The notes beneath the pieces were generated by a model. It was not told the DNA's origin and made no database searches. It saw only the letters and a list, made by a program, of their open reading frames with translations. Of a stretch of 64,000 nucleotides of DNA, positions 746 through 21,460 are shown one piece after another. Numbering within the stretch: the stretch's first letter is position 1; each line of letters begins with the position of its first letter. The position numbers and the translations under genes are program-made. This DNA is from a virus: IMG/VR virus record IMGVR_UViG_3300050016_000116, positions 35,645-99,644 of that record; one strand, written 5' to 3'.

Positions 746-1621
746 GTGCTCGTCCAGCTTCGCTCCCAGGCTTCCGCAGACGAGGTCAAGAAGCTCATCG
801 CTTCCCGACCCGCACCCGAGCACGCGTCCCTCTTCCTCACGCAAGAGGCGACGATCTACAAGCCGAACGGGGACCGACTTCTGACGCTCGTGCGAGGGGG
901 CATCTCCGAGAAGACCGCGGAGAGAGCGCGACCCTTCTATCACTCCCTCCACACTGTCATGACTCGCAATCGCGGTGCCTACGCTGGCGCCAGAAGGGCT
1001 CGCCCGGTCAGGAGCAACGGTACCCTGTCCAACACCTTTGAGACCGTCCCGGTGCGTTCCTGCATCCTCGGAGCTATGGATCGCTACCCTCGCAATCCCT
1101 TCTGCCGGCAGGCAGCGATCGTCGGGCAAGATCCTGAGGGATGGGAGATCGGACAGGAGCTTGTGCGGGAGGTCTCAGACGTCTTCAAGAGCCACTACCC
1201 CGAGCGGTTCCTCATCCAGCAGGCAATCGCAGAGACCACCCACAAGGACTACATCATCAAGGGCACCCCCTTCACGACCATCACCGTGAACAACACGGTT
1301 CCTGCGGCCTATCACCGCGACGCTGGCGACTTCAAGCCGGGCTTCGGGGTCATGACGGTTCTTCGGCGTGGCATCTACCGAGGGTGTGAGTTGGTCCTCC
1401 CTGCGTTCGGCGTGGCAGTCGACCTCCAGGACCGGGACGTCATCCTGTTCGATGTCCACGAGGTCCACGCCAATCTCCCTTTCATCGCGACGCAGGGGAA
1501 AGAGGTGGAGGATTGGGAAAGGATTAGCATAGTAGCGTATTATAGAGAACGAATGATAGATTGCCTTCCACCTCGGGAAGAGGTTGAGAGGGCGAATAAT
1601 CTACATGGGACGGTTCGATGA
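746..1621 (+). CDS. TET/JBP-family 2-oxoglutarate/Fe(II) dioxygenase (DNA base hydroxylase)
   Basis: 291 aa, GTG start directly after the ParB-like gene. The C-terminal double-stranded beta-helix core shows the TET/JBP pattern: HRD at residues 190-192 (the HxD iron ligands), then GFGVMTVLR, CELVLPAFGVAVDL, the distal DVHEVHAN (H238 or H241) and ERISIVAYYRER with a candidate 2-oxoglutarate-binding Arg. The N-terminal part contains YPRNPFCRQAA, like the DR(S/Y)PR-PYCR segment of phage TET/JBP proteins. Such enzymes oxidise thymine (JBP) or 5-methylcytosine (TET) in DNA. Its neighbours (transferase-fold protein, FAD enzyme, P-loop kinase) fit a pathway that further decorates the hydroxymethyl base. 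Whether T or 5mC is the substrate cannot be told; no C5-cytosine methyltransferase is visible in the window. Confidence 0.85.
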   Translation: MLVQLRSQASADEVKKLIASRPAPEHASLFLTQEATIYKPNGDRLLTLVRGGISEKTAERARPFYHSLHTVMTRNRGAYAGARRARPVRSNGTLSNTFETVPVRSCILGAMDRYPRNPFCRQAAIVGQDPEGWEIGQELVREVSDVFKSHYPERFLIQQAIAETTHKDYIIKGTPFTTITVNNTVPAAYHRDAGDFKPGFGVMTVLRRGIYRGCELVLPAFGVAVDLQDRDVILFDVHEVHANLPFIATQGKEVEDWERISIVAYYRERMIDCLPPREEVERANNLHGTVR

Positions 1622-1709
1622 TCCCGCTGAGTTTTGGAGGAACGTAAAGAAGCGGTCTGGAAGTGATGAGACAACGGCCATTCTTGGGTGCATCTGGGTC
1701 GTTAGATGA
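1605..1709 (+). CDS. small overlapping ORF, possible true N-terminus of the next gene
   Basis: 34 codons starting MGRFDDPAEFWRNVKK, with a GAGAGGG Shine-Dalgarno upstream. The peptide looks like real coding sequence, while the first 14 residues of the overlapping downstream gene do not. Either this is an independent short gene bridging the two neighbours, or a one-base indel separates the original N-terminus (this ORF) from the body of the 1663 gene. Not decidable from one sequence. Confidence 0.4.
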   Translation: MGRFDDPAEFWRNVKKRSGSDETTAILGCIWVVR

Positions 1710-2583
1710 CGACTTCAAGACGTTCGCCAAGGCGCAGATCAAGACAGGAGACCTTGACCCGACCTACTGGCTCCTGAAGCGAGCCTACGCGCGGGAAGGT
1801 CTTACGAAGGACATCGCTCTCTGGCGCACGCTTCTCTACGTGACTTGGTACCACCTCGGGTCATCGGAGAAGATGTGGACCCTTTTCCGATTCCCTCAGA
1901 AGATCCGTGAGCAGTTCGTGAAGGGACTCTCCACGGGAACGGAGCGAAGAGGGTTCAGGGGGAACGTCAACGCGGCTGCGTTCATCAACGACGTCCTGAA
2001 CCGTGCTGCTACTTGCGGGGGAACTCTTCACGGGTGGATTGAACGAGTCGCAGGAGGGCACCTCTGGGCTTTTGGATGGAACAACATTCAGGTTGAGCTG
2101 ATGATGGTGAAGAACGCAGGACCGTGGGCGAGCTACAAGTGGGCTGACCTTCTCAAGAACGTTCACAACTACGACATCACTGCGCCCGATCTCGGAGTCG
2201 GAGGAGGGAGCGCGACAGCGGGACCTATCCCGGGGATGGTTCGGCTCACTGGCAAGGACTGGAAGCAGTGCGCAACGGACATAGGACTTCAGTGCGCGCT
2301 TCTCGATCGCTACGTGGCGGAGGGTGTTCCCTTCTCGGGTCTCGACCAGTTGGAGACGGCGCTCTGCGACTTCAACTCGCTCTGCAAGGGCGGGTACTAC
2401 GTGGGGCACGACATCGACGGGATGATGAGTAATCTGCCTCCGAACAGTCCTCTCTGGCTCTCCCGAGACGTCTTCACCGAGTCAGTGCGCGGTGAGCGCC
2501 AAGGGTGGAACGGGGTTCGGAAGGAGCGGAAGAGCGTCTACAAGAACACGGGGCGAATCATCCTCCCTTGGGAGCAGATGTGA
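1663..2583 (+). CDS. aGPT-pyrophosphorylase-like / amino-acid:DNA transferase-fold protein
   Basis: 306 aa (GTG 1663 or ATG 1666). The centre has AGPWASYKWADLLKN, then a conserved Asp segment and SATAGPIPGMVRL. This matches the pattern of the helical alpha-glutamyl/putrescinyl-thymine pyrophosphorylase superfamily (an AYQ-x-DL helix, Asp, then a GPG...GL loop), which includes the amino-acid:DNA transferases and the helical domain of phage 5-hydroxymethyl-dU DNA kinases. In thymidine-hypermodifying phages these enzymes replace the activated 5-hydroxymethyl (pyro)phosphate by an amino acid or polyamine. The position between a TET/JBP dioxygenase and an FAD enzyme plus kinase supports this. Family membership rests on motif recognition by eye. 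The N-terminus may be misassigned (see the small ORF at 1605). Confidence 0.6.
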   Translation: MMRQRPFLGASGSLDDDFKTFAKAQIKTGDLDPTYWLLKRAYAREGLTKDIALWRTLLYVTWYHLGSSEKMWTLFRFPQKIREQFVKGLSTGTERRGFRGNVNAAAFINDVLNRAATCGGTLHGWIERVAGGHLWAFGWNNIQVELMMVKNAGPWASYKWADLLKNVHNYDITAPDLGVGGGSATAGPIPGMVRLTGKDWKQCATDIGLQCALLDRYVAEGVPFSGLDQLETALCDFNSLCKGGYYVGHDIDGMMSNLPPNSPLWLSRDVFTESVRGERQGWNGVRKERKSVYKNTGRIILPWEQM

Positions 2584-3473
2584 TTCACCTTCAGGGCATG
2601 GGGGTAGTCGGTTCCCTTCTCGCGTGGCAGCTCCTCCAGCGGAAGGTTCCCTTCACGTGGAACGATGCAGAGACCAACATCAACGCGTGGAGCGCCAGCA
2701 CGGGCTGTATCTATCCTTCGGGAGACCCACTCGACACCATTGCCTACAACGTCTGGAAGAATTGGGTAGCCAGTCCTCCGTGGAGGGTACCCGGGATGGT
2801 CGAGACGTCGGGCTACTGGTTCTGCACGAAGTCAGCTCCCAACGGGTTGAAGGGCGGGATCGAGGCTCAGGTGGGACCTCTCCGGCGCTCCACCTTCCCT
2901 GCGATGAACTTCAACGCGCAGGCGTTCGTGGCCATGACCAGGAAGATGTTCGCGATGAAGCGGCTCACGTACTCAGCACCACGCGCAAAGAAGGTCGTGG
3001 TCACGCACGGATTCGGGGAGCGGCTTCACCACTACGTCTGGGGTTGGCATCGGAAGGTGAGGCTTCGCTTCCACGAGGACTTGGTCAACGCGGAGTTCTG
3101 CAAGCGCATGACCATCTCCCTCACGCGCGGGCGGTTCGTCATGGCGTACGCCTATCCCATGCCTGGCTATCCTGAGTGGTACTACGCGGGTTCTGACCGG
3201 GTGGTGCAGAAGACCGCCAAGGAGCTTGAGGTGCTCCCGAAGTATGAGGCGTGGCGCCGCAACTTCACGTCACTCTCGGGTGGGTTGATCGAGATCATGG
3301 AGGAGGGGGGAATCGCGCAGGGGTGGAGACCCGCAGGTCGTCCTGACGATGATGCGATGGTCATGGAACTCACTGGACGGTTCGGGTCAGTGTTGGTCAA
3401 GCCTCAACGAGGGAACGGGGTTCGGCACGCTCCTCTGGTCTGTCGAGCGGTGATGACAGCGTTGGGCTTCTGA
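2580..3473 (+). CDS. FAD-dependent oxidoreductase of the base-modification cassette
   Basis: 297 aa, GTG start at 2580 overlapping the previous stop. The N-terminus is a Rossmann dinucleotide-binding motif, GMGVVG at residues 6-11, followed by LLAWQLL and an acidic residue at the end of strand 2 (FTWND), as in FAD-dependent D-amino-acid-oxidase-like enzymes. The C-terminal region has GVRHAPLVCRAVM, as in the second half of such folds. In phages with 5-aminomethyl-dU, an FAD-dependent lyase removes part of a glycine attached to the base; the gene order here would suit that step. Substrate is unproven; FAD binding is well supported. Confidence 0.7.
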   Translation: MIHLQGMGVVGSLLAWQLLQRKVPFTWNDAETNINAWSASTGCIYPSGDPLDTIAYNVWKNWVASPPWRVPGMVETSGYWFCTKSAPNGLKGGIEAQVGPLRRSTFPAMNFNAQAFVAMTRKMFAMKRLTYSAPRAKKVVVTHGFGERLHHYVWGWHRKVRLRFHEDLVNAEFCKRMTISLTRGRFVMAYAYPMPGYPEWYYAGSDRVVQKTAKELEVLPKYEAWRRNFTSLSGGLIEIMEEGGIAQGWRPAGRPDDDAMVMELTGRFGSVLVKPQRGNGVRHAPLVCRAVMTALGF

Positions 3474-3482
3474 CGGCACTCT
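3472..3482 (+). promoter_or_regulatory. GACGGCACTCT motif, 6 nt before ATG 3489
   Basis: Exact GACGGCACTCT starting in the stop codon of the FAD gene, then 6 nt (CGGGGG) and ATG. No Shine-Dalgarno fits between. ATGACA lies about 18 nt upstream of CACTCT and could be a -35. Recurs at 10 places in the window. Confidence 0.5.
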
Positions 3483-3488
3483 CGGGGG

Positions 3489-4013
3489 ATGAACATGATC
3501 CTCTACGTTGTCGGTGCGCCTGGATGCGGGAAGACCACCCTGGTTCGTCGACTCCTGGAAGCGGACAACTACTTCAACGTTCGACCGAAGTGGACGATCG
3601 GGAACGGGCAGAAGGTCTGCGCAGCGGGGCACTATACGGGTGGAACGTTTGATGGAGCCGACACGGTTCCGTACAACGGGTTTCAGCTGGCGCTCGACTT
3701 CTGGAAGGCGAACCTCATCAACTTCGAGCTGACGATCTTCGATGGGGATCGCTTCAGCGACAAGCGCACGATCGAGTTCTTCCAGTCTCAACCCGTCCAC
3801 CAGCGGGTGATTCACTGCATCGCATCTGCGCAGCTCCTCGCAGAGCGCCGGCAGGAGCGAGGTTCGACTCAGAACCCCTCGTGGATGAAGGGACGGGAGA
3901 CGAAGTCTGAGCGCTTTGCCACTGACCTCTTCTCACCCGAGGACAACCGACTCATTCTCCAGATGCACGAGAAGCCGGAGAACTTGGAGCGGAAGGTGCG
4001 GAAGTGGCTCTGA
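3489..4013 (+). CDS. P-loop kinase, candidate 5-hydroxymethylpyrimidine DNA kinase
   Basis: 174 aa. Residues 9-16 form a Walker A motif (GAPGCGKT) after a hydrophobic strand. TIFDGDRF (around residues 80-87) is a plausible Walker B/substrate Asp region, and LAERRQERG near residue 118 fits the Arg-rich lid of small nucleoside/nucleotide kinases. Phage 5-hydroxymethyl-dU DNA kinases are small P-loop enzymes encoded beside transferase-fold and FAD proteins, which is exactly the setting here. It would phosphorylate the hydroxymethyl group made by the dioxygenase. It has its own motif promoter and leaderless-type start. A general nucleotide kinase role cannot be excluded. Confidence 0.65.
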   Translation: MNMILYVVGAPGCGKTTLVRRLLEADNYFNVRPKWTIGNGQKVCAAGHYTGGTFDGADTVPYNGFQLALDFWKANLINFELTIFDGDRFSDKRTIEFFQSQPVHQRVIHCIASAQLLAERRQERGSTQNPSWMKGRETKSERFATDLFSPEDNRLILQMHEKPENLERKVRKWL

Positions 4014-4417
4014 CCCCTTTCGCCCGATGGTGGCGGAAGGTCCGAGAATCACTTCAGGCGCGGTACTACGAGGGGCCACACCCTCCACGCAGGCTCAATG
4101 AGATCGTCCTAGCGTTTGCCAACGAGCACCCCGCAGCCACACGTCTGGAGTGGGTGACGTTCGCGATCGAGCACGCACGGGAGACCTACCGAACGGGATG
4201 GGTGCGGGGAATGGAGTACACCGAGCGGTCTCCCGAGGAGCGCACGGCAATTCGCACCGCCGATCCCGATGCAGCCGCGGACATGCTTGATCCGGACTGG
4301 AAGTGGCAGCCAGCGATCAACCTGGAGTACGACCCTCACGCGGTCCCCATTGCGCAGCCAGGGGAACGTGAAGCGATCGAGAGAATGTTCACGAAACCGA
4401 AGGAGAAGAAGACATGA
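4004..4417 (+). CDS. hypothetical protein
   Basis: 137 aa, GTG start inside the last codons of the kinase gene (10-nt overlap), so translationally coupled to it. The N-terminus is basic and aromatic (TPFARWWRKVRESLQARYY); the rest is helical with a run WVTFAIEHARETYRTGWVRGMEY, which resembles small phage proteins of the gp-ORF 'TGWxxG' type with no known function. The C-terminus is charged (TKPKEKKT). The ATGA overlap with the next gene indicates one operon. No catalytic motif seen. Confidence 0.7.
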   Translation: MALTPFARWWRKVRESLQARYYEGPHPPRRLNEIVLAFANEHPAATRLEWVTFAIEHARETYRTGWVRGMEYTERSPEERTAIRTADPDAAADMLDPDWKWQPAINLEYDPHAVPIAQPGEREAIERMFTKPKEKKT

Positions 4418-4842
4418 CCGAAGAGACGAAGTGGGATCCGCAGTCGCTCCTGGGCAAGTTCGTGCTCTATGTGCCGGCGAAGTTCATCGGGAGGGTCACC
4501 GACTTCTTCGATGGGACTACGAAGAAGTTCACTTCCCCCATCAACAACCAGCAAGTGAAGGGTCCTGTTCTCCAGATCGATGGGCAGCACCATCTCGTCG
4601 CAGTCGAGTCCTCGTTCATCGAGCTTCAGGAGGGGGAGGCAGCGTTCTTCGCTGCGGTCCAGCAGGCGCTCACCGGAGCGCTCGCAGAGGTCGTGAAGAT
4701 CGGGGCGGAGATGAAGATCCCCCCTCCGACCCTCGCACTCCTCCTCGTAGCCACACTGCGGACGCAGGGCATGGCTTTGGAGGCATTCCACAAGAACGAT
4801 CTCCCCCAGCAGGCACCTCCCGAGACGGCATTCCAGGGGTAA
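4414..4842 (+). CDS. hypothetical protein
   Basis: 142 aa, overlapping its predecessor by ATGA. The first 75 residues look like a beta-rich SH3/KOW-like domain (LLGKFVLYVPAKFIGRVTDFF, GPVLQIDGQHHLVAVESSFIELQ); the rest is helical and Ala-rich. No membrane segment or catalytic motif is visible. It is the last gene before the first palindrome (4849-4870), so it may end the modification operon. Confidence 0.7.
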   Translation: MTEETKWDPQSLLGKFVLYVPAKFIGRVTDFFDGTTKKFTSPINNQQVKGPVLQIDGQHHLVAVESSFIELQEGEAAFFAAVQQALTGALAEVVKIGAEMKIPPPTLALLLVATLRTQGMALEAFHKNDLPQQAPPETAFQG

Positions 4843-4848
4843 GGCGCG

Positions 4849-4870
4849 ATTCGAAAAGCGCTTTTCGAAT
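4849..4870. repeat. palindrome copy 1
   Basis: Perfect 22-bp palindrome with core TTCGAAAAGCGCTTTTCGAA, in the short gap between two genes. It ends 11 nt before ATG 4882, directly 5' of the GGAG ribosome-binding site. Confidence 0.95.
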
Positions 4871-5130: not shown

Positions 5131-5489
5131 TGCGCGGCTTCCTCTCCAAGACGTTCCAGGAACAGCTCCGGGTCTTCGACCAGGAGAAGGGGATCGATCA
5201 TCGCCTGGACTTCTGGGTGGAGCAGTTCGGGGGTGGAGCCGGGGCTTGGCTCCTCTGGAACTATCGCAAGCAGATCCACAACGCGGGTGCGGTCGACTTC
5301 CAGATCCCCAGGGAGATCCCCACACCTAACTGGATGCGAGTTGCACTTGAGGCGATCAAGAGACTCCCTTACTGGTCCGTGAATATCGTTGGAGGAACGA
5401 AGGACCCCATGAGGCGCTTCCGAGTTCGCTGGCATCGTCACGGTCACTTCAAACGCAAGCCGTCCCTACCCCCGGAGCAACTCTCATGA
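5130..5489 (+). CDS. hypothetical protein
   Basis: 119 aa, coupled to both neighbours by 1- and 4-nt overlaps. Contains FLSKTFQEQLRVFDQEKG, an aromatic WLLWNYRKQ segment and a basic C-terminus (RWHRHGHFKRK). No family recognised. Its position directly before thyX suggests it is co-transcribed with nucleotide-metabolism genes. Confidence 0.65.
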   Translation: MRGFLSKTFQEQLRVFDQEKGIDHRLDFWVEQFGGGAGAWLLWNYRKQIHNAGAVDFQIPREIPTPNWMRVALEAIKRLPYWSVNIVGGTKDPMRRFRVRWHRHGHFKRKPSLPPEQLS

Positions 5490-7087
5490 CAATGGTGAAT
5501 TATTCGGTTCTTGATCACGGCTACTTGGGACTAGTGGAGAGCTGGGGGAGTGACGAGCGCATCGTGGAGGCGGCGCGCATGTCGACGGGCAAGGGTTTCC
5601 TAGGGTGGGGGCCGAGCACCGTTTGCCAGTGTGGTCGGGAGGTCACTGAAGCCAACGCGCTTGATCATCGCGAGTGCGGCTCACCCACGAAGTTCACGAC
5701 GAGCCCCGGTGACGAGAAGCTCCTTCGCTACCTCTGGGAGAACAAGCACGCGACGCCATTCGAGATGGCGGGGATGACGATCGAGGTGCAGGCGCCCATC
5801 TTCGTCTTCCGGGAGTGGCACCGGCACCGAACGCAATGCCTCGTCGGCGAGACGATGATCGCTTGCGTCTCGCCGAATGGCACGACCTATCAGCGCAGCA
5901 TCAAGAACATCTTCGACCTCAAGTACGGTGGTGTCGAAGACACGCAACCGCGAACGAGGAACGGGACGAGCCGGGGTGGCACGCCCGTCAGACGAGAGGC
6001 GCGGCGGGTGGTCCCGTGGCGCAAGCGTGTTCTGCCCAACTGCCAGGCGCGCGCTCTCCGCGTGCTCAACGAGACGACGGGAGAGTTCGAGACAGCGCCG
6101 ATGGCCGACGTTTGGGAGTCGGGCACGAAGCCCGTCTTCTGCGTGAAGACTGAGACCGGGCGCACCGTCGAGGCGAGCGCTGAGCACCCGTTCTTCACGC
6201 GCGACGGCTGGAAGAAGCTCAAGGAGCTTCGCGTCGGCGATTCGCTTGCTCGCATCGGCGTCGTCGCTACGCGTGAGCGACCGCTCCCTCCGGCGCTCCG
6301 GGCCGGCATCGGCGTGTGGACATCGATGATGAGGGCTCGCCTCATTCGGCAGCCGACGGACTTTTGTTATCTCTGCGAGACGGAGTTCAAGTTCTCGATC
6401 CTCGAACTCGACCACGTCGTGCCGGTGTCGGCGGACCTGTTGCGGGCGCTCGACGCGACGAACCTCCGCCCCATCTGCCCGCGATGCCACAAGAACAAGA
6501 GCGCTGCGGAGCAGCCCTCACGGGAGGGGATGACTCGCCGAGGCGTACGGTGGGAGCGCGTCGTCGAGGTCCGCGAAGTCGGCGACGCGCCTACCTACGA
6601 CATCGAGGTCGACGGGCCGCACCACAACTTCGTCGCCAACGGGCTAGTGGTCCACAACAGCTACAACGAGATGAGCAGTCGCTACATGCCGCTACCGGAC
6701 GTGAACTACATCCCGAGTGTTGAGAGGTTGATGCTCAATTCGAAGACGAACAAGCAGGCGGGGACGGTAAAGGGCTCGGAGGAGATGACTGAGCCGAAGG
6801 CTGGGGCGGTGCGTCATGCGCTGTCGCTCCTCTACGGGGACCAGCAGCGTGCATATGAGGAGTTCCTCAAGTGGGGCGTCCCGAAGGAGCTAGCCCGCGT
6901 CCACCTTCCCGTGGGTCGCTACTCGCGGATGCGCGCGAGCGCGAACCTGCGCAACTGGCTCGCGTTCCTCACGCTCCGGATGGACGAGAAAGCTCAGTGG
7001 GAGATCCGTCAGTACGCGAATGTAGTGGGGGAGATCATCTCTGCACAATTCCCGCGTACGTGGGCACTCTTCTCTGAGAAGCGCTGA
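5486..7087 (+). CDS. thyX: FAD-dependent thymidylate synthase ThyX containing an intein
   Basis: 533-codon precursor. The exteins form a flavin-dependent thymidylate synthase (dUMP to dTMP with methylene-tetrahydrofolate and NADPH). The ThyX signature RHRxxSxNExSxRY is rebuilt when the intein is removed: RHRTQ (residues 113-117) joins SYNEMSSRY. Other ThyX features are the early SDERIVEAARMSTGKG, LRYLWENKHATPFE and the C-terminal VHLPVGRYSRM. The mature protein would be about 259 aa, slightly long because of an insert around residues 45-70 with CQCG...HREC that looks like a zinc-binding loop. It overlaps the next gene by 1 nt. It fits a phage that makes thymidine for its DNA, possibly the base later modified by the 746-4013 cassette. 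Confidence 0.93.
   Translation: MTMVNYSVLDHGYLGLVESWGSDERIVEAARMSTGKGFLGWGPSTVCQCGREVTEANALDHRECGSPTKFTTSPGDEKLLRYLWENKHATPFEMAGMTIEVQAPIFVFREWHRHRTQCLVGETMIACVSPNGTTYQRSIKNIFDLKYGGVEDTQPRTRNGTSRGGTPVRREARRVVPWRKRVLPNCQARALRVLNETTGEFETAPMADVWESGTKPVFCVKTETGRTVEASAEHPFFTRDGWKKLKELRVGDSLARIGVVATRERPLPPALRAGIGVWTSMMRARLIRQPTDFCYLCETEFKFSILELDHVVPVSADLLRALDATNLRPICPRCHKNKSAAEQPSREGMTRRGVRWERVVEVREVGDAPTYDIEVDGPHHNFVANGLVVHNSYNEMSSRYMPLPDVNYIPSVERLMLNSKTNKQAGTVKGSEEMTEPKAGAVRHALSLLYGDQQRAYEEFLKWGVPKELARVHLPVGRYSRMRASANLRNWLAFLTLRMDEKAQWEIRQYANVVGEIISAQFPRTWALFSEKR
5837..6658 (+). mobile_element. intein with HNH homing endonuclease domain inside ThyX
   Basis: 274 aa. It starts with Cys (block A, CLVGETMI), has block B as SAEHPFFTRDGW, block F as TYDIEVDGPHHNFVANG, and ends with VVHN followed by extein Ser (+1). 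All class 1 splicing residues (C1, block B His, HN, S+1) are present, so splicing should work. Between the splicing blocks sits an HNH nuclease (CYLCETEF...LELDHVVPVS...NLRPICPRCHKNK) with paired CxxC zinc ligands. The insertion point is inside the FAD/dUMP-binding signature of ThyX, the kind of highly conserved site inteins choose. Confidence 0.93.
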
Positions 7088-7893
7088 TGCGCGAGGTCAT
7101 CATTGTTCCCCCAGAGAACTCGGCGCGAAAGGGGCGATCGTTCCGCGCAGTCTGTCTTGCGACGATTGAAGCGGACACACTCTGGGGGGAGACCATCACT
7201 GACGACACGCGCCCGGTGCTTGCGGTGTTCGCGGGTTCGGACCAGGAGATGCGTCCCTTCCAGGCGAACCTGCGAATGGGGAGGAAGGCGAACATCATCA
7301 ACGCGGGCAGGAACTCCTACCGGAAGAAGACAGACCGGATGGAGTTCCTGCGGTCAGTCGATTACGAGTACACGTGGCAGCGGGAAGCAGAGGGATCGAT
7401 CCTCACCGTGCGGCTCTCGGAGCTATTCATGCTCGACCCGGGGATGGTCGACCCATGGGGCGCCAAGTTCATCGTCCTCCCCTCCTCCACGTGGGCAGCA
7501 GAGCAGACGATCGATCCCACTCCCGCGGTGATGCACGTGCGAGGTCTTGGGTTCAAGGGTATCGAGCATGAACAGCTCACTGCTCTCGTGCCTCTTGCCG
7601 CTCTCTTCGCGGTATATCTCGACCGGCGCACGCGTTGTCCAATCGTCATGGACGAACGGTTCTACCTCCAGCTCTTCTGCGCCAGTCTCGGGCAAGGACT
7701 CGCATCGTTCGCGTGGGACGGGAGGTACAGCGAGGACTTCGGGGTGAACAAGTCGTTCAAGTTCTCGCAGGACACGGACGACGTTGGGTGCTTCGCGAAG
7801 GGTGTCGCGTTCAAGGCGAACCACGAGCAGATTGAGACCCTTCTCGCAGAGCAAACCACCTACTTCTTCGAGGCTACTCATGGCGCGTCCTGA
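7087..7893 (+). CDS. hypothetical protein coupled to the methyltransferase-helicase
   Basis: 268 aa, sharing one base with the thyX stop and overlapping the following large gene by 14 nt. Mixed alpha/beta sequence. Notable segments are MRPFQANLRMGRKANIINAGRNSYRKKTDR, a basic region that could bind nucleic acid, and VMDERFYLQLFCASLGQGLASF. No recognised domain or membrane segment. The tight coupling to the DUF6094-like methyltransferase/helicase suggests a partner protein; function unknown. Confidence 0.75.
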   Translation: MREVIIVPPENSARKGRSFRAVCLATIEADTLWGETITDDTRPVLAVFAGSDQEMRPFQANLRMGRKANIINAGRNSYRKKTDRMEFLRSVDYEYTWQREAEGSILTVRLSELFMLDPGMVDPWGAKFIVLPSSTWAAEQTIDPTPAVMHVRGLGFKGIEHEQLTALVPLAALFAVYLDRRTRCPIVMDERFYLQLFCASLGQGLASFAWDGRYSEDFGVNKSFKFSQDTDDVGCFAKGVAFKANHEQIETLLAEQTTYFFEATHGAS

Positions 7894-10800
7894 ATCGCAG
7901 GCATTTGCCGGGTTCTTCCCGACACCACTGCATCTCCTCCCGCGCATCGCACGTCTGCTCTCTCCCAGGAGAGAGGAAGGTGCTGAGACATCGATTCTTG
8001 ATCCCTGCGCGGGGGAGGGTCATGCGGTCGTGGAGCTGGCGAAGTACCTCTGCAAGCGCAGTCCGAACATCTTCGTGTGTGAGATGGAGTTCACGCGCTA
8101 CGAAGCGCTTGAGAAGACACTCAGAGGAGTCGGGTGCTGGAAGAACGTTCTCCACGGAGACGCATTCCGGGTCACGTTCAAGAAGGGGAGCAATGAGGGG
8201 GTCTCTGTTCTCTACCTGAACCCTCCCTACGACACGCACCCGGTCTACGGACGGTTGGAGCACAAGTTCCTGGAGAGGTTCACCGACACCCTCAAGGATG
8301 GTGGGATTCTCTTCTACGTGGTTCCGTACTACTCCCTCAAGGCATCGGCGGACTTCTTCGCCTCACGATTCTCTGAGCTGCACTGCTACAAGTTCCCGGG
8401 CTCCGACTTTGAGGCGTTCAAGCAAGTTGTCTTGGTCGGGCAGAAGGGAAGTGGACTATTCGGGGAGAGCAACAAGAAGCTGCGCCAAGACGTGCTCACG
8501 TGGGCGGAGGACCCGGAGCGAATCCAGAAGCTCCCAGCGATCCCGGAGCCGCTCTGGGAGGTCCCTTCTTCCCCGCGGTACCACGATGGGTTGGAGGAGT
8601 GGATCATCCGCCCGGTCGACATCACGGCGCTCACGAAGAAGGTGCGCCCATGGATGCAGTCAGCTCGGAATGGAGCGCTCATCCCCATCCCGGGGATCGT
8701 TCCCGATCTCCCGGTCCAAGAGATGCTCCTGCGCCAGTACCCCGTAGCGACCCCTCCTAGACCCGCGCACATCGCGGCAGGCATCGCATCAGGCATCTTC
8801 AACGGAGCCCGTCTGAAGCCATCCTACCGCGAAAGAAGGGCACTCCCGGCTCTCCTCGTGAAGGGGTGCTTTGACAAGGAGTACCGGACGGTGGAGGAGA
8901 AGAAGGACAAGAACGGGAACACCAAGGGTCTCGTTCAGGTTCAGCAGCCGAAGCTGGTCACCACCGTGCTCGACCTCTCAACGTTCCGCTACCACGTGCT
9001 CAAGAGTGGTGTGGAGCCCTGTAAGGGTATCCCCAAGGTCGAGACGATGAGCGTGGCAGACCTCATCGAGCACTATGGGGACTCGATGACGGGGGTGATG
9101 GGGGTGCAGTGCCCGGTGCTCTACGACCCGAGAAGGGACGCGGACTCCATCCCCATCCCGGAGACACCCAGGAAGCTCTTCAACGCCCAAGCGCACGCGG
9201 TTCGAGCGCTGGTGAAGCTTCTCGGAGGACCATCATCGACGAAGAGGAAGCGAAGGGGGAAGGCAGCGATCCTCCTGGGGGAGATTGGGGTAGGCAAGAG
9301 CACGGTCGCAGCAATGGCAGCAGAGACCATCAAGGCGAAGCGCATCCTCATCATGTGCCCACCTCACCTCTTGACCTCGTGGACGAACGAGTGCGCGGCA
9401 GTGCTCCCGCACGCAGAGGTGGTCGTCCTCAACAATGTGGAGGACGTGGACGCGCTCGTTTCGAGGAAGCAGCGGAGGGGGACGACCAAGCGCACGATCG
9501 TCACGCTCCTCACACGCGAGACAGCGAAGCTATCGCACTCCCGGGAAGGAGTTGGGGGAACTTGCCCGAAGTGCGGGTCATCCCTTCCCTTCGACCCCGA
9601 GGATCTTGCGAAGAAGCGGGAGCGCTGCGAGCACATCCCCAAGACACCCTCCAACAAGCTCGCAGAGATCTCCATCCGACTTGGCTATCGGCTCCTCCCG
9701 TTCTCGGGGGACGTGGCTGCATACTTCGGTGGGTTCTTCGACAAGCAGCGCGCGAATGCCTACGACTCGATGGAGAAGCGGCCGCAATTCCGAGGGCTCA
9801 CCCTCGGGGAGCTGGATGACGCGCTCGTGGAGCTTCTCATGCTTCTCCCGCAGTCTCTCGACAGCGAGACGCGTACCAAGGTCGAGAATGCGATCGTGGT
9901 CATCCTCCATGCAGCGGGAGACGAGGAGCGCACGTTGAAGACAGCGGCAATCGTCGCTGCGAACAACAACTCATGGACCCACTTCGAGCAGGACTTGCTC
10001 CTCTTGCTTCCTCCTGGCGATCCGCGGGTAGCGCAGTTCATCAAGGAAGTGAAGGAAGCTGAGAAGCCCAAGAGCTACGGCGGTGACGTTTGGCACGCGT
10101 TCGAACAGCGAGTGCAGGATTCGAAGGAGGGGAAGGCAAAGGCAGGTTCGATCGATGTCTCCTGGGCATCGGGGGAGCTGATGCTGCACTCGAAGTGCAA
10201 GCGCGGGTCTCTCGAAGCAGCACGTGCAGCGTTCATTGGGATTCGGGTTTTCTCCACCTTCGAGGATGGTGAGCCGTGCGGGGAGTTCCTCTTCCAGGCA
10301 GTTCCGACCCCGAGACGTGTTGCGCTCTCTTCCTACATCACGAAGTACCACCCGGAGCTGTTCGACTTCCTCGTGCTCGACGAAGGACACGAGTACAGCT
10401 CTGACTCCAGCGCGCAGAGCTTCGCTGCCCACCGTCTCACCGCACTCGGGCTCCCCACGATCTTGATGACCGGGACGATCATGAACGGGTACGCAGAGAG
10501 CTTGTTCACGAACCTCTGGGCGCTCTCCCCCGCGTTTCGTTCGGAGTTCGATCGCAACGAGCGCCAGCGGTTCATCGACCGCTACGGGTATCGCAAGCGA
10601 ATCGTGGAGGACCGGGACAAGGAGACCAAACAAGTGGTCGAGTTCGGTTCGCAGTCGGATCGAGTGGTCCGCTCAGAGCGGGTTGTCGGCAATGCTCCCG
10701 GGCTCCTCCCGCTCTTCCTCCTGCGCCACCTTCTCCCCATCTCCGTCACGCTCCACAAGACGGACTTGGCGATCGATCTCCCTCCCCTGCGTCAGGAGAG

Positions 10801-11614
10801 GTTCCGCGTGAAGCCGACAATCAAGCAGCACCAGTTCTACGACCAGCTCAAGGATGCTCTGGTGACGCAGATCAAGGCAGACCGTTACGTGGAAGGACTT
10901 GCGGGGAAGCTCTGGGGTCAGCTTGCAGAGCTACCGTCCTACTTGGACCGGGCGCACGAGGGGTTTGAGATTCGCTACCCGGAGTCGGTGGGTGGAGCCA
11001 TTGTGGCAAGCGTTCCCCCTCTCCCGCTCACCCCCGTGCTCCCAAAGGAGCGATGGATCCTCGACAAGGTGCAGAGCGAGCTGGACGAGGGAAGGAACGT
11101 GATGGTGTTCTCTTGGCACCTCTCGCTCCTCCCGCGACTTCAGCGGCTCATCTCCGAACACATCGGGGAGGACGTTCCTATCCTCTTCGCGGACAAGGTC
11201 CCGACAGCGAAGCGCCAGGATTGGATCGATCGCGAGGTCATCCGGAAGGGAGCGCGGGTGATGTGCGCGAACCCTGTCGCTATCCAGACGGGGCTCAACA
11301 ACTTGGTCTACTTCGCCACGGAGATCTGGCACGAGAACCCGGCGTGCAACCCCATCACCTACCGCCAAGCGGTCGGGCGGGTGGATCGTATCGGGCAGAA
11401 GAAGGACACACGGATCTTCTTCCCGATCTACGAGGAGACACTCCAGGAAGCGCTCTACGACCTCCTGATGAAGAAGGTCGCTGTTTCCGTCAGCACGGAT
11501 GGACTAGATCCCGAGTCAGCACTTCAGGCAGCGGGAGCCGGAGAGGACGAGTACATGATGGGTCTGTCGATTGGTCGGCAGCTCTGGAAGATGATGAACG
11601 AAGAGGCAGCATGA
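7880..11614 (+). CDS. fused N6-adenine-type DNA methyltransferase (DUF6094-like) and SNF2-type helicase
   Basis: 1244 aa from ATG 7880 (the frame is open upstream but that part overlaps a real gene). The N-terminal 250 residues are a Rossmann methyltransferase: SAM motif I DPCAGEG (about 42-48) and catalytic NPPYD at about 114, as in DUF6094 and type I/IIG adenine methylases. A superfamily 2 helicase follows: Walker A GEIGVGKST near 467, a CxxC...C-x-H zinc-like insert near 561, Walker B variant DEGH near 834, and the C-terminal GRVDRIGQKKD motif VI near 1166, as in SNF2/RapA proteins. The architecture resembles phage anti-restriction proteins such as P1 DarB in combining the two activities, but homology to DarB is not shown. 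It may protect or remodel phage DNA. Confidence 0.85.
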   Translation: MARPESQAFAGFFPTPLHLLPRIARLLSPRREEGAETSILDPCAGEGHAVVELAKYLCKRSPNIFVCEMEFTRYEALEKTLRGVGCWKNVLHGDAFRVTFKKGSNEGVSVLYLNPPYDTHPVYGRLEHKFLERFTDTLKDGGILFYVVPYYSLKASADFFASRFSELHCYKFPGSDFEAFKQVVLVGQKGSGLFGESNKKLRQDVLTWAEDPERIQKLPAIPEPLWEVPSSPRYHDGLEEWIIRPVDITALTKKVRPWMQSARNGALIPIPGIVPDLPVQEMLLRQYPVATPPRPAHIAAGIASGIFNGARLKPSYRERRALPALLVKGCFDKEYRTVEEKKDKNGNTKGLVQVQQPKLVTTVLDLSTFRYHVLKSGVEPCKGIPKVETMSVADLIEHYGDSMTGVMGVQCPVLYDPRRDADSIPIPETPRKLFNAQAHAVRALVKLLGGPSSTKRKRRGKAAILLGEIGVGKSTVAAMAAETIKAKRILIMCPPHLLTSWTNECAAVLPHAEVVVLNNVEDVDALVSRKQRRGTTKRTIVTLLTRETAKLSHSREGVGGTCPKCGSSLPFDPEDLAKKRERCEHIPKTPSNKLAEISIRLGYRLLPFSGDVAAYFGGFFDKQRANAYDSMEKRPQFRGLTLGELDDALVELLMLLPQSLDSETRTKVENAIVVILHAAGDEERTLKTAAIVAANNNSWTHFEQDLLLLLPPGDPRVAQFIKEVKEAEKPKSYGGDVWHAFEQRVQDSKEGKAKAGSIDVSWASGELMLHSKCKRGSLEAARAAFIGIRVFSTFEDGEPCGEFLFQAVPTPRRVALSSYITKYHPELFDFLVLDEGHEYSSDSSAQSFAAHRLTALGLPTILMTGTIMNGYAESLFTNLWALSPAFRSEFDRNERQRFIDRYGYRKRIVEDRDKETKQVVEFGSQSDRVVRSERVVGNAPGLLPLFLLRHLLPISVTLHKTDLAIDLPPLRQERFRVKPTIKQHQFYDQLKDALVTQIKADRYVEGLAGKLWGQLAELPSYLDRAHEGFEIRYPESVGGAIVASVPPLPLTPVLPKERWILDKVQSELDEGRNVMVFSWHLSLLPRLQRLISEHIGEDVPILFADKVPTAKRQDWIDREVIRKGARVMCANPVAIQTGLNNLVYFATEIWHENPACNPITYRQAVGRVDRIGQKKDTRIFFPIYEETLQEALYDLLMKKVAVSVSTDGLDPESALQAAGAGEDEYMMGLSIGRQLWKMMNEEAA

Positions 11615-11841: not shown

Positions 11842-12251
11842 AGCGGGTCCCGGTCGACTTCCGTTACGATGCGGTGAACCCGGACTTCCTTCTGGCGCTC
11901 GCGAAGATCGGATCGTACGCGTCGGAAAAGTACGGGAGCTGGTCGCAATACACCGGAGCACGTCTCCTCGGAGATAAGGATCCCGTCAATCACATCTACG
12001 AACACCTCCGGCAGTACCAGATGAACGAGGGGTACGATCACTTTGACGGAGACGTGCGCTGGCATCTCGTCGCGGTCGCTTACAATGCCATGATGAGCTT
12101 CTGGTACCACTCGAAGTGGGGCGCGCTTCGTCACCCCCTCGACCTCAAGGAGGATTCGAAAAGCGCTTTTCGAACCGGGGAGGTTCGCTCCGTTCCCGGC
12201 ATCCGCATCTACGAGTTTCCAGGGGAAAAGAAGCCCTCCAAGAAAAAGTAA
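11838..12251 (+). CDS. dATP/dGTP diphosphohydrolase-like protein (DUF5664/MazG-like)
   Basis: 137 aa from GTG 11838 (4-nt overlap). RYDAVNPDFLLALAKIGSYASEKYG followed by HIYEHLRQYQMNEGYDHFDGDVRWHLVAVAYNAMMSFWY matches the phage DUF5664 family (RYDLLPPEAL...A..Y..KYG...W; RHL.A...GE..D...HL.H..WN). These all-alpha NTP-pyrophosphatases hydrolyse dATP/dGTP and are used by phages to shape the nucleotide pool. A palindrome copy (12155-12174) lies in frame near the 3' end and is translated as DSKSAFR, followed by a Lys-rich tail, so the C-terminal 35 residues were probably altered by the repeat. Confidence 0.72.
   Translation: MKRVPVDFRYDAVNPDFLLALAKIGSYASEKYGSWSQYTGARLLGDKDPVNHIYEHLRQYQMNEGYDHFDGDVRWHLVAVAYNAMMSFWYHSKWGALRHPLDLKEDSKSAFRTGEVRSVPGIRIYEFPGEKKPSKKK
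12155..12174. repeat. palindrome copy 2, inside a coding sequence
   Basis: Perfect 20-bp TTCGAAAAGCGCTTTTCGAA within the 3' part of the diphosphohydrolase-like gene, read in frame as DSKSAFR. Confidence 0.95.
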
Positions 12252-12260
12252 GAAAAGAAC

Positions 12261-12288
12261 TTGCGAAGCTTCGCAGAAGGTTTATAGT
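12261..12288 (+). promoter_or_regulatory. sigma-70-like promoter before the methyltransferase leader
   Basis: TTGCGA (12261-12266), 16-bp spacer, TATAGT (12283-12288), just after the stop of the preceding gene. The closest match to a bacterial consensus promoter in the window. The spacer holds GCTTCGCAGAAGGTTT, similar to GCTTCGCAAGAGGTTT at 59249-59264, which precedes another promoter-like site. Confidence 0.55.
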
Positions 12289-12350
12289 CTCTCTTGTCCC
12301 CGCCGCTCTCCGAGAGAAACGGAGCGCTTCCGGGGCAGGAGGATACGAAG

Positions 12351-12428
12351 ATGAACATCGCGCAGCTCCAGGCTCTCCGGTCGTTGGCTCTTCCCCTCAC
12401 GGGCCGCCTGTGCGCTACGAGGCACTGA
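12351..12428 (+). CDS. 25-aa leader peptide overlapping the methyltransferase start
   Basis: Short ORF with a strong AGGAGG Shine-Dalgarno (12337-12342). Its TGA overlaps the ATG of the methyltransferase (TGATG), so translation of the methyltransferase, which has no obvious Shine-Dalgarno of its own, is probably coupled to it. The peptide is Leu/Ala/Arg-rich (QLQALRSLALPL). It could be a regulatory leader or the 5' stub of a gene replaced by the methyltransferase insertion. Confidence 0.5.
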   Translation: MNIAQLQALRSLALPLTGRLCATRH

Positions 12429-13285
12429 TGGTTGCTCGAACATCGAAGGCGAGCCACGGCGCGGCGGTGAAGTTGATCGTGGGCGACACGCGCGACGAGT
12501 TGCAGCGGCTCTCTGCCGGGATGTTCAACTGTTGCGTAACGAGCCCCCCGTACTGGGGACTCCGCGACTACGGGCACAAGACGCAGATCGGCGCAGAGGA
12601 CACCGTGGACGCCTACATTGCTTCGCTCGTGCAAGTGTTCCGTGAGGTGCGGCGCACGTTGCGTGACGACGGTACCCTCTGGCTCAACATCGGAGACAGC
12701 TACACGAGCGGCAACCGCACGTGGCGCGACCCGGACAAAAAGAACCCGGCGCGCGGGATGAGCTACCGTGCCCCAACCCCAAAGGGGTTGAAGCCGAAGG
12801 ATCTGATCGGCGTGCCGTGGCGCCTGGCGTTCGCTCTCCAGGCGGACGGGTGGTTCTTGCGGTCGGACATCATCTGGTACAAGCCCAACTGCCAGCCCGA
12901 ATCGGTGAAGGATCGTCCGACCCAGTCGCACGAGTACATCTTTCTGCTCTCCAAGTCGCAGGACTACTACTACGACACGGAGTCGGTCCGGCAGCCCACG
13001 AAGGACGGGCGCTCTACGCGCATGCGTCGCTCGGTGTGGGAGGTCAACACGGAGCCGTACGCAGGGGCGCATTTCGCCGTGTTCCCGCCGTCACTCGTCC
13101 GGCCATGCGTCCTCGCAGGCAGTCCGAAGAGCGGTCTTGTGCTGGACCCGTTCTTCGGCTCCGGCGCTCTCGGCGTCGCGTGCCTTGAGACGGATCGTTC
13201 CTGCATCGGTATCGAGGTAAAGGAGGAGTACGCGGAGCTGGCTAGGGAGCGGCTGCGAGGTCTCCAGCTTGGGCTACTAGGATGA
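12428..13285 (+). CDS. site-specific DNA methyltransferase (N4-cytosine/N6-adenine, beta class)
   Basis: 285 aa. Catalytic motif IV TSPPYW at about residue 38 comes before SAM motif I (LDPFFGSGALGVACLETDRSCIGIE) near the C-terminus: beta-class order. KDLIGVPWRLAFALQADGW, SQSHEYIFLLSKSQDYYYD and the VWEVNTEPY segment are standard for this family. Modifies DNA at an unknown short site, most likely for protection from host restriction. No restriction enzyme lies next to it. Flanked by a leader stub and an antisense gene remnant, it looks like an inserted cargo gene. Confidence 0.88.
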   Translation: MVARTSKASHGAAVKLIVGDTRDELQRLSAGMFNCCVTSPPYWGLRDYGHKTQIGAEDTVDAYIASLVQVFREVRRTLRDDGTLWLNIGDSYTSGNRTWRDPDKKNPARGMSYRAPTPKGLKPKDLIGVPWRLAFALQADGWFLRSDIIWYKPNCQPESVKDRPTQSHEYIFLLSKSQDYYYDTESVRQPTKDGRSTRMRRSVWEVNTEPYAGAHFAVFPPSLVRPCVLAGSPKSGLVLDPFFGSGALGVACLETDRSCIGIEVKEEYAELARERLRGLQLGLLG

Positions 13286-17769: not shown

Positions 17770-19524
17770 ATGAAGTCAGCACGCAGGCGCGCGCCCGAAC
17801 CCTCTCCCCCCAAGCCTGATTCGAAAAGCGCTTTTCGAAACTCCTCAACTTCTGGAGCCCAAGTGCTCGAAGCGGGGGATGTAGCGCTCGCTTCCATCCT
17901 TCGGGATGAAGTCTTCGCAGACGCGATGAAGGCAAGGGAGGACATCTTCACGTTCTTCGAGTTCGTGATGCGTCGCTTCGACAAGCGTGAGCCCATCCAG
18001 CTTGCAGCGCATCAACGTGTGCTCCTGGAGTTCTTCATGGCGCACGATCGTTCTGTCGCAATGTGTCCGGTCGGTTCCTCGAAGACGTGGATCGCGGTTG
18101 GGCTTGCGCTCTTCTTCCTTGGTCAGAACCCCGAGTCACGAGGGGCAGTTGTCTCTGCGACCGAGGGGCAGGCGAAGAAGTTCGTGCAGCTTGTTCGCGG
18201 GTACATCACTGAGTCCCCCGAGCTGAGGATGGTCTTCCCTCACCTCATCCCTTCGCAGAGGGACGGAGAGCAGTGGACGCAGACAAGCATCACCGTGCAG
18301 AGGTCAGTCGGCATCAAGGATGCGTCTCTCACCGCGTACGGGATTGACAGCCCTTCGATCGTCGGTTCTCGTCTCGCCTGGGTCATTGTCGACGACATCC
18401 TCAGTGACGAGAACACGTACACCCCCGAGTCACGTGACCACGTCCTTCGGCTCTTGAACGGGCAGGTTCTCTCCCGTCTCGATCCCATCGGCTCCAAGGT
18501 CATCATGATCAACACCCCCTGGCATCCTGACGACGTGGTTCATCACGCCAGGGACAAGCGCGGGTGGGCGACAATCCGCATGGACATCTACGGTGACATC
18601 GAGGTCTGGGACGACGCCTCCACGGAGATCGAGACCCATCCGCACTACGGGAAGTATTGGGACAGCGACATGCTCCGTCCCGCAGAGCCGGCGAACACGA
18701 ACAACCGCTGCTGCCGACTCGTCGCGCACGAACCCGACCCTGACAACTCGGTTCCCCTTTGGCCGGAGGAGCGCCCGATCGAGTGGATTGAGAACACGAA
18801 GCGGGAGCTGAACTTCAACACCCTTGTCTTCAATCGCAACTACCGCTGCCTAGTGCGCGATGACGAGAGCAGCATGTGCAAGCAAGTTTTCGTGGACCGC
18901 TGCTTGAAGATGGCGCGTGACCTCGGCATCTACGGTCTCGTCTCGGTCTACAAGGGCCCTTACCTCACGTTTACCGGGGTGGACCTCGCGTTTGCAGAGC
19001 ACGACAAGGCGGATGAGACCGCGTTCTTCACCTTTGAGGCGAGACCGGGCGGCATCAACGTCATCTTGGACATCGAGATCGGACGTTGGGACAGTCCGAC
19101 CGTCATCCAAAAGATCATCGACAAGCAGAAGGCATTCAACAGCACGGTCAGGGTCGAGAGCAACGCTGCGCAGATTGCGATCAAGCAGTTCGCGCTCCAG
19201 AGGGACAAGAGCTTGCCTATCAAGGCGCACATGACGGGAAGGGCGAAAGCTCACCCCGAGTACGGCGTGCCGGGGCTCTTCTCGGAGATGGAGAATGCGG
19301 CGTGGGTTCTCCCGAACTCCCCCCGTGGTCAGCAGAGCCCGCAGATCGAGCGCTTCATCCGGGACTGCCTTCACTACGTCCCGAGCAAGCACACCGCGGA
19401 CATCCTCATGGCCGCGTACTTCGCCCGGGAACAGAAGCGCGAGTGGATGGGGCTCTCGGGGAAGGGCAACCAGGCAGGTACCCCGGGGCAACCGTCTGCT
19501 ATCGCGGGGGTCATGTCTCGGTAG
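17770..19524 (+). CDS. terminase large subunit
   Basis: 584 aa. The ATPase domain has a Walker A-like CPVGSSKTW at about 99-107 (variant, with S-S-K-T), RGAVVSATEGQAKKFVQLV, and Walker B WVIVDDIL near 203-210. The RNase H-like nuclease domain follows with FTGVDLAFAEHDKADETAFFTFE near 400-420 (metal-binding Asp) and a later FIRDCLHYVP...HTADILMAAYFA with a second acidic site. It packages phage DNA into proheads. The first about 35 residues are low-complexity and contain a palindrome copy read as DSKSAFR, so the repeat has inserted into, or been captured by, the 5' end of the gene. A later start would avoid it, but the TAGCTT spacing favours 17770. Confidence 0.92.
   Translation: MKSARRRAPEPSPPKPDSKSAFRNSSTSGAQVLEAGDVALASILRDEVFADAMKAREDIFTFFEFVMRRFDKREPIQLAAHQRVLLEFFMAHDRSVAMCPVGSSKTWIAVGLALFFLGQNPESRGAVVSATEGQAKKFVQLVRGYITESPELRMVFPHLIPSQRDGEQWTQTSITVQRSVGIKDASLTAYGIDSPSIVGSRLAWVIVDDILSDENTYTPESRDHVLRLLNGQVLSRLDPIGSKVIMINTPWHPDDVVHHARDKRGWATIRMDIYGDIEVWDDASTEIETHPHYGKYWDSDMLRPAEPANTNNRCCRLVAHEPDPDNSVPLWPEERPIEWIENTKRELNFNTLVFNRNYRCLVRDDESSMCKQVFVDRCLKMARDLGIYGLVSVYKGPYLTFTGVDLAFAEHDKADETAFFTFEARPGGINVILDIEIGRWDSPTVIQKIIDKQKAFNSTVRVESNAAQIAIKQFALQRDKSLPIKAHMTGRAKAHPEYGVPGLFSEMENAAWVLPNSPRGQQSPQIERFIRDCLHYVPSKHTADILMAAYFAREQKREWMGLSGKGNQAGTPGQPSAIAGVMSR
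17820..17839. repeat. palindrome copy 4, inside TerL N-terminus
   Basis: Perfect 20-bp core TTCGAAAAGCGCTTTTCGAA, 50 nt after the TerL start codon and in frame. Confidence 0.95.
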
Positions 19525-20497: not shown

Positions 20498-20552
20498 TGG
20501 CCCCGGCGCTTTCACTCTTGTGCGCGGGCGGCGAGAGGGTGACGTGGCGATC

Positions 20553-21320
20553 ATGACCGAGCGTCGAGGAGCCACCGCCCTAAAGCTTGTCGCCGAGCCA
20601 CCGCCGCCTGTTCGGCTTGTGCGGCGGAAGGGAAAGAAGCCCAGGAAAGCCCCGGTTGGCGTCGCTACAAACGACCTCATCTTCAGCGCGCACGTAGGGT
20701 CTAACGCCGCCGTCTTCCCGATGGTCCTCGCCCTCTACGTGCCTGAGAAGAGCGTCGTAGCGGACGTCACGCATGGCAAAGGGGCGTTCTGGCGCGGCAT
20801 CCCCAAGGCGCAGTACGACGTTCGGGCCACCGATCTCAAGTCAGGGACGGATTGTCGCAAGCTCCCCTACAAGGACGCGGTGATCGATTGCGTCGTCCTC
20901 GACCCGCCGTACATGCACACGCCTGGCGGCACGGCCCATGATGGGCACCAGAACTTCGAGGGGTACTACCAGAACAACGCAGCGGCCTCGAACCTCAAGT
21001 ACCACGAAGCGGTGCTCGACCTTTACTACGGCGCCGGCCGCGAGGCGCTTCGAGTGCTCCGGGATGACGGCATCTTCATCGTCAAGTGCCAGGACGAGGT
21101 TTGCGCGAACAAGCAACGGCTAACCCACGTGGAGCTGGTCGTCGAGTACGCAAGGTACGGGTTCGTGGTTGAGGACTGCTTCGTGCTAGTTCGGACCAAT
21201 CGGCCCGGCGTAAGCCGGATGCTGAAGCAGCGCCACGCACGGAAGAACCACTCCTATTTCATGGTGTTCCGAAAGCGACGACAGCCTCGTCAGAGTGTGT
21301 CGGCTTCGAGGAAGAAGTGA
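20553..21320 (+). CDS. DNA methyltransferase (DPPY type)
   Basis: 255 aa, ATG 20553 with AGAGGGTG upstream. SAM motif I-like VADVTHGKGAFW at about 70, then catalytic motif IV VLDPPYMHTPGG at about 115, followed by YHEAVLDLYYGAGREALRVLRDDGIFIVKCQDE and a C-terminal KNHSYFMVFRK, all typical of N4/N6 DNA methylases. The last about 10 residues (after FRKRRQP) run into sequence that looks antisense-coding (21290-21460), suggesting the true gene end was replaced at a recombination junction. Codons and composition differ somewhat from neighbours, so this is likely cargo. Confidence 0.82.
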   Translation: MTERRGATALKLVAEPPPPVRLVRRKGKKPRKAPVGVATNDLIFSAHVGSNAAVFPMVLALYVPEKSVVADVTHGKGAFWRGIPKAQYDVRATDLKSGTDCRKLPYKDAVIDCVVLDPPYMHTPGGTAHDGHQNFEGYYQNNAAASNLKYHEAVLDLYYGAGREALRVLRDDGIFIVKCQDEVCANKQRLTHVELVVEYARYGFVVEDCFVLVRTNRPGVSRMLKQRHARKNHSYFMVFRKRRQPRQSVSASRKK

Positions 21321-21460
21321 CCGAACCCCTTGACGTCGATCTTCGGGTACTCGCTCGACATCGCCGAGTAGCCGGTTGGGATGTCGAGGTAGTAGACGCG
21401 CGTGAGCCAAGCGATGAACATCTGGTAGATCCTCCACTGGTCTGGAAGACACTCGCCCAT
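21290..21460 (-). pseudogene. antisense gene fragment between two methyltransferases
   Basis: Minus-strand frame reading LPDQWRIYQMFIAWL, then a Tyr-rich segment, then KIDVKGFGHFFLEADTL and a stop. The composition is that of a real protein C-terminus, clearly better than the plus-strand reading here. It ends convergently with the upstream methyltransferase. Family not recognised. Confidence 0.45.

Follow-up and report, generated by a model that had tools for sequence, protein, structure and literature searches.

Which base does a phage modify when a TET/JBP-type dioxygenase stands among transferase, flavin-enzyme and kinase genes, and what does such a gene set make of that base? The question is raised by a cassette in a stretch of viral DNA of 64,000 nucleotides (the window), which corresponds to bases 35645–99644 of the linear IMG/VR virus contig IMGVR_UViG_3300050016_000116 (99,644 bases in total). 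Five genes lie head to tail, all on the plus strand, and encode a ParB-like protein, a TET/JBP dioxygenase, an amino acid:DNA transferase (ADDT/AADT), a flavin adenine dinucleotide (FAD) enzyme and a P-loop kinase. The identity of these genes, their family membership, their folds and their conserved co-occurrence are established. The cassette is probably a post-replicative system of thymidine hypermodification that converts thymidine to 5-aminomethyl-2'-deoxyuridine (5-aminomethyl-dU).

Genes and enzymes of the cassette

An earlier note, made from the sequence of the window, had described four coupled genes. All four open reading frames are present on one strand where the note had placed them, with coding-type codon-position GC; the start of the FAD gene has to be moved, and the ParB-like gene at 46–741 belongs to the set as well. 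The FAD frame was listed from a GTG at 2505. The sequences of its homologues start with the GxGxxG motif, and the ADDT stop codon is overlapped by another GTG (ATGTGA at 2578–2583); therefore, the gene likely starts at this second GTG, at 2580. In the closest relative, locus L014, the ParB-like, TET, ADDT, FAD and kinase genes and the gene that follows them are collinear with the window, and ThyX comes next. The five cassette proteins are 46–54% identical between the two loci (48% for the ParB-like protein); the ratios of nonsynonymous to synonymous change (0.55–0.67) were set aside, as synonymous sites are near saturation. Judged by gene order, the set is far beyond chance, since L014 is collinear and the complete combination of TET, ADDT, FAD enzyme and kinase recurs in 40 of 57 ADDT clusters (see below).

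The dioxygenase (746–1621) matches Pfam Tet_JBP (PF12851) with 81.6 bits against a cut-off of 34.9 (E-value 4.9e-23). The motifs already pointed out in the earlier note, HRD (190–192), HEVH (238–241) and ERISIVAYYR (258–267), form the Fe(II)/2-oxoglutarate motif, in which H190, D192, H241 and R259 are invariant across 59 homologues. The best solved match of the family profile is TET2 (1.3e-5); an alignment of nine TET sequences was too divergent for scanning. Both the TET and the ParB-like protein of the window are closer to proteins of Pelagibacter phage HTVC112P than to those of actinophages. The enzyme is predicted to hydroxylate the 5-methyl group of thymine in DNA.

The ADDT protein (1663–2583) scores 27.5 bits with Pfam ADDT (PF18724), barely above the cut-off of 26.2 (3.1e-6). 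Its family profile matches gp51 of Pseudomonas phage M6 at 1e-20 and gp46 of Pseudomonas phage PaMx11 at 3.6e-14, and in the Protein Data Bank (PDB) it finds 25qc (5.7e-18) and the glycinyltransferase 8z2m (1.3e-10). The AlphaFold2 model has a predicted local distance difference test (pLDDT) score of 91.6, and a Foldseek search with it returned PaMx11 gp46/PUGT (8z2n, probability 1.00, TM-score 0.54–0.57) as the sole PDB match at E≤0.001. This fold match is moderate, and the sequence profiles agree with it independently. PDB entries 8z2m and 8z2n are annotated as PaMx11 gp46, a 5-phosphomethyl-dU glycinyltransferase, and by analogy the window protein is predicted to have the same function. The other candidate relative, the M6 gp55-type aGPT-PPlase, was rejected because it gave no profile match. 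ADDT genes are rare in bacteria: a family profile scan of 84,980 species found two loci, both in actinobacteria, one of which is a Streptomyces contig that is also present in IMG/VR (L032), with the same length and coordinates.

The FAD enzyme (2580–3473) has an N-terminal GxGxxG motif and homologues in Gordonia phages (E-values down to 6e-26), and gave no match in Pfam, the DAO family included. Its AlphaFold2 model (pLDDT 90.4) adopts the D-amino-acid oxidase (DAAO)/glycine oxidase fold; the Foldseek matches are DAAO, D-aspartate oxidase (DASPO), and glycine, sarcosine and iminodiacetate oxidases, with E-values of 7.9e-13 to 4e-9, TM-scores of 0.61–0.70 and about 14% identity. Two FAD lineages occur in these cassettes, one with the window protein and the other with PaMx11 gp47, Phelemich gp4 and Kozie gp3. 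They occupy the same slot and are found together in none of the 57 clusters. Of the matched enzymes, the oxidases of glycine, sarcosine and iminodiacetate act by cleaving N-CH2-COOH groups. Because N-alpha-glycyl-thymidine would present just such a group, the enzyme is predicted from its modelled fold to cleave it to 5-aminomethyl-dU and glyoxylate.

The kinase (3489–4013) scores above the cut-off of Ploopntkinase3 (3.4e-9) and has an intact Walker A motif, GAPGCGKTT; G9, G14, K15, D58, G86 and Q128 are invariant across 60 homologues. Its family profile matches PaMx11 gp49 at 3.2e-6. The window kinase has no match to HMUDK_HMUD1 (PF18748), whereas M6 gp54 does, which places the window kinase in a sister family. 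The activity of 5-hydroxymethyl-dU (5hmdU) DNA kinase is established (PMC7653180), and the window protein is predicted to be such an enzyme. The earlier note would have been refuted if the 1663 and 3489 proteins lay outside the transferase and DNA-kinase families; instead, the former groups with the transferases and the latter with the phage DNA kinases.

Some database labels disagree with these assignments. In PHROGs (phrog_6059, phrog_800) and in many mycobacteriophage records, TET/JBP proteins are called queuine tRNA-ribosyltransferase and cassette kinases terminase small subunit; gp2 and gp5 of phage LilMcDreamy (855–1787 and 3761–4333 of L009) also carry such labels. The queuine label, found on one TET match, was rejected, and the terminase label is contradicted by the cassette context and by the Pfam kinase match. 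By these comparisons, the PHROG and GenBank labels of both families look wrong.

Entry step, pathway and alternatives

Viral and bacterial collections scanned with single proteins returned no relatives, and family alignments were needed; profile scans of IMG/VR gave 80 ADDT loci and nine FAD loci. Local hidden Markov model searches sorted the loci into 57 clusters, with 80% ADDT identity as the threshold. A TET gene is present in 48 clusters, a homologue of thymidylate synthase (TS) in four and neither in five; none has both in the locus. All four TS clusters are among the nine without TET, for which a hand calculation gives a chance of 3e-4 if the clusters are independent. In 50 whole records, TET is found in 42 and TS in five, with one distant case of both (Fisher p=0.0014). 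Two loci, L062 and L094, pair an ADDT, a kinase and a FAD enzyme of the window type with a TS homologue instead of TET. Because the two entry enzymes interchange upstream of the same set of enzymes, TET would supply 5hmdU as the intermediate, just as the TS route does. The earlier note's suggestion that the dioxygenase replaces a deoxyuridine monophosphate (dUMP) hydroxymethylase agrees with the gene content of the 99.6-kb contig, which has no match at E≤1 to the TS family (PF00303), with the limit that this linear contig is possibly not complete, and none at E≤1 to C5-cytosine methyltransferases (PF00145). Its thymidylate supply genes, dCMP deaminase and ThyX, were also counted for thymine as the substrate.

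From these data we infer each reaction, the substrate base, the glycine donor, and the product with its amount and purpose. In the DNA of the phage, the TET/JBP enzyme would convert some of the thymines to 5hmdU by oxidising their methyl group, and the P-loop kinase would phosphorylate the hydroxymethyl group to give 5-phosphomethyl-dU. The amino group of glycine would then displace the phosphate on the ADDT enzyme, forming N-alpha-glycyl-thymidine, whose N-CH2-COOH arm the FAD enzyme would oxidise, hydrolysis freeing glyoxylate and leaving 5-aminomethyl-dU. DNA modified in this way may resist host nucleases. In known phages, 5hmdU in DNA is phosphorylated by 5hmdU DNA kinase, and amine additions follow (PMC6449724, PMC7653180). 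The order of steps is that of the earlier note, and homology, two models of high confidence and the comparative data support it well. Several points weigh against it. The window ADDT is only 16–19% identical to PaMx11 gp46, and apart from the Rossmann motif no sequence relationship could be detected between the FAD family and PaMx11 gp47; the DAAO fold, as modelled, would be compatible with many oxidations. Most relatives are contig fragments, so that absences are soft, and the p-values are optimistic, as related sequences are not independent. Finally, no activity or base composition data on any TET-type cassette were found.

The alternatives differ in the base, in the final product and in the number of sites. 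If TET instead oxidised 5-methylcytosine (5mC), the later enzymes would build a hypermodified cytosine, as in phage systems that combine a C5-methyltransferase with TET. The only phage TET whose activity has been published acts on 5mC (Burke 2021, cited in PMC12730594), TET2 is the best solved match of the profile, and the host could supply 5mC. Nevertheless, we consider a cytosine substrate very unlikely. Besides its absence from the contig, the C5-methyltransferase family occurs in three of 50 ADDT records and in one of 50 records of the TET subgroup, the latter chosen regardless of ADDT, so that this count does not separate ADDT-linked TETs from the rest; the solved ADDT relative takes a deoxyuridine substrate; and the same ADDT, kinase and FAD enzymes also pair with a TS homologue. 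The case against 5mC rests on this last exchange, as it is read from gene content. A more serious contender, though still unlikely, is a hypermodified thymine other than 5-aminomethyl-dU, which could arise from another amino acid or from a different FAD-dependent oxidation that keeps the side chain. The separate lineage of the window FAD protein, which sequence does not connect to PaMx11 gp47, leaves room for it, as do five TET-type clusters with a kinase and no FAD gene. In LilMcDreamy, the FAD slot holds an aspartyl/asparaginyl beta-hydroxylase-like protein (2656–3759 of L009) alongside a divergent ADDT, and this cassette possibly has a different end product. Phages with this class of pathway also end in different bases: according to PMC6449724, phage ViI makes 5-NeOmdU, and M6, to which the earlier note had ascribed 5-aminomethyl-dU, makes 5-(2-aminoethyl)-dU (5-NedU). 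On the other hand, the two FAD lineages share one slot and never meet, and one of them includes PaMx11 gp47; oxidases that cleave N-CH2-COOH groups are among the fold matches.

The third alternative concerns the ParB-like gene, whose product matches the ParB-like family phrog_723 (2.8e-16; Pfam ParB_N only 0.066) and is described here as ParB/Srx-fold-like. The gene is present in at least 44 of the 48 TET-type clusters and in none of the four TS-type clusters (p=2.6e-4 if clusters are independent), and from this distribution it is probably a fifth member of the cassette. A TET route would need targeting and a TS route would not, because TS changes the pool of nucleotides and TET has to locate its target sites in DNA; a role of the ParB-like protein in DNA targeting is a guess from this pattern. 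It is rather doubtful that the protein guides TET to chosen sites in finished DNA and so places 5-aminomethyl-dU at defined positions, unlike the M6-type pool route. We attach similarly little weight to a restricted modification, in which the ParB-like protein would direct the cassette to a small number of sites and the base would serve, like base J, as a mark for regulation or packaging in place of a genome-wide shield. Such a mark would fit the association of the gene with TET-type clusters, since TET is able to work at selected positions of finished DNA and the TS route replaces the deoxynucleotide pool; however, ParB-like genes are common in phages, often near packaging genes, and the TS-type clusters number only four.

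If conversion of thymidine to 5-aminomethyl-dU is correct, phages would reach one hypermodified thymine by two routes, through hydroxymethyl-dUMP before replication or through hydroxylation of thymine in finished DNA. Phages would then possess a thymine-oxidising TET/JBP enzyme, which bears on the origin of base J and of TET chemistry, and the cassette would be a four-enzyme kit to put primary amines into ordinary DNA. The natural exchange of TET and TS makes the substrate of phage TETs directly testable.

Comparison with known systems

The earlier note held the combination to be undescribed; in fact, it is carried by Gordonia phage Wooper (gp1–5), Mycobacterium phage Phelemich (gp1–5), Rhodococcus phage Tonitrus (gp1–8) and Microbacterium phage Kozie (gp1–4), and the Tonitrus genes have been described as a possible thymidine hypermodification system (PMC11955845). 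In a tblastn search of deposited phages, 17 records, all from actinophages, matched the ADDT and eight records matched the FAD gene. The cassette genes of the four named phages are homologous to those of the window, except that Phelemich and Kozie have the other FAD lineage. Each has TET and ADDT proteins (20–24% and 32–36% identical to the window proteins, respectively), a kinase and a FAD gene. Phelemich has the gene order of the window; a ParB-like gene is upstream in Phelemich, Wooper and Tonitrus, whereas gp1 of Kozie is TET. The ParB-like, Tet-like, aGPT-PPlase2/ADDT and kinase genes of Tonitrus and a fifth gene all have adjacent counterparts in the window. That fifth gene, the unnamed last gene of the Tonitrus cassette, shows homology to the FAD gene of the window (30% identity) and therefore would have the DAAO fold; relative to the published description, its identity is what these comparisons appear to add. 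Unlike the actinophage cassettes, that of the window is part of a contig of 99.6 kb that also encodes a tail-sheath-like protein. The cassette belongs to a class already annotated in isolated phages, with predicted chemistry; these phages could be measured at once, and the class will be no surprise to specialists. Iyer and colleagues are said to have predicted, in 2013, phage systems that start from hydroxymethyl pyrimidines generated by TET/JBP enzymes.

The trio of kinase, transferase and FAD enzyme had been ascribed to M6-type phages, but the phage that has ADDT, FAD enzyme and kinase is PaMx11. Its module consists of gp46 (ADDT/PUGT), gp47 (DAO-family FAD enzyme), gp48 (acetyltransferase), gp49 (kinase) and gp51 (TS homologue). 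As in the window, ADDT, a DAAO-fold FAD enzyme and a P-loop kinase are neighbours. The modification in PaMx11 enters through the TS homologue before replication, whereas the window uses TET; the FAD enzymes can be aligned only at the nucleotide-binding motif; and no counterpart of the acetyltransferase gene was seen in the window cassette. The DNA of PaMx11 presumably contains acetylated 5-aminomethyl-dU, which would agree with the product proposed here. M6 shares relatives of ADDT (gp51) and of 5hmdU DNA kinase (gp54) with the window, and differs in its TS homologue, a pyridoxal phosphate enzyme and a second aGPT-PPlase-like protein, gp55, which is unrelated to the window ADDT by profile.

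TET/JBP enzymes also act as post-replicative hydroxylases in phage systems with a C5-methyltransferase, TET and glycosyltransferase (Burke 2021, cited in PMC12730594). The window differs from these in having no C5-methyltransferase and in its downstream kinase, ADDT and FAD enzymes. In kinetoplastids, the TET/JBP enzymes JBP1/2 hydroxylate thymine in DNA on the way to base J (PMC6449724), which is the reaction proposed for the window TET; base J is then glucosylated, in contrast to the phosphorylation and amino-acid transfer predicted here. In Arthrobacter phage Kharcho (4683–6109 of L011), two ParB genes, TET and a kinase are adjacent, with no ADDT or FAD gene in the neighbourhood. To judge from such gene content, phosphorylated 5hmdU may itself be the end product in some phages.

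Genomic setting

The contig comes from a tailed phage whose tail is probably contractile: the window encodes a large terminase (17770–19524), a major head protein (49602–50996) and a tail-sheath-like protein (55530–58115), and a family B DNA polymerase and dCMP deaminase are encoded upstream in the same contig. Nucleotide similarity between the cassette and deposited phages is limited to a single 81-base stretch. The gene that overlaps the kinase stop codon (4004–4417, plus strand) is conserved behind the cassette in L014, where the product of the gene directly after the kinase shares 48% identity over 66 amino acids; Pfam and PHROG searches gave no family match for it. ThyX follows (5486–7087, plus strand; Thy1 2.9e-36) and contains an intein (3.7e-17) with an HNH endonuclease (4.1e-8). 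The ThyX of L014 (10560–11375) is also downstream of the cassette and is intein-free. ThyX would supply dTMP and is regarded as context of the cassette rather than as a proven member.

A RecA-like gene in an upstream piece of the contig (9433–11670 of L007) has a weak LAGLIDADG match and possibly holds a second intein. A frame of 1276 amino acids at 7784–11614, which probably starts near 7893, fuses a DUF6094 methyltransferase-like domain to an SNF2 helicase. The other methylases of the contig are of the N4/N6 type, with matches in three more genes (12116–13285, 20520–21320 and 21317–22675), and these suggest that the phage may also methylate its own DNA.

A 20-base palindrome, TTCGAAAAGCGCTTTTCGAA (often GATTCGAAAAGCGCTTTTCGAATC), occurs 18 times, with up to three mismatches allowed, across the window and the two pieces upstream of it; no copy would be expected there. 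Twelve copies are in the window, at 4850, 12155, 15491, 17820, 20186, 24029, 29770, 34472, 43277, 46468, 52278 and 62447; the others are at 4679, 10526, 13573 and 18810 of L006 and at 7057 and 12862 of L007. The copies are often intergenic, past a stop codon and ahead of the next gene, and the palindrome looks like a candidate operator of a phage-wide regulator.

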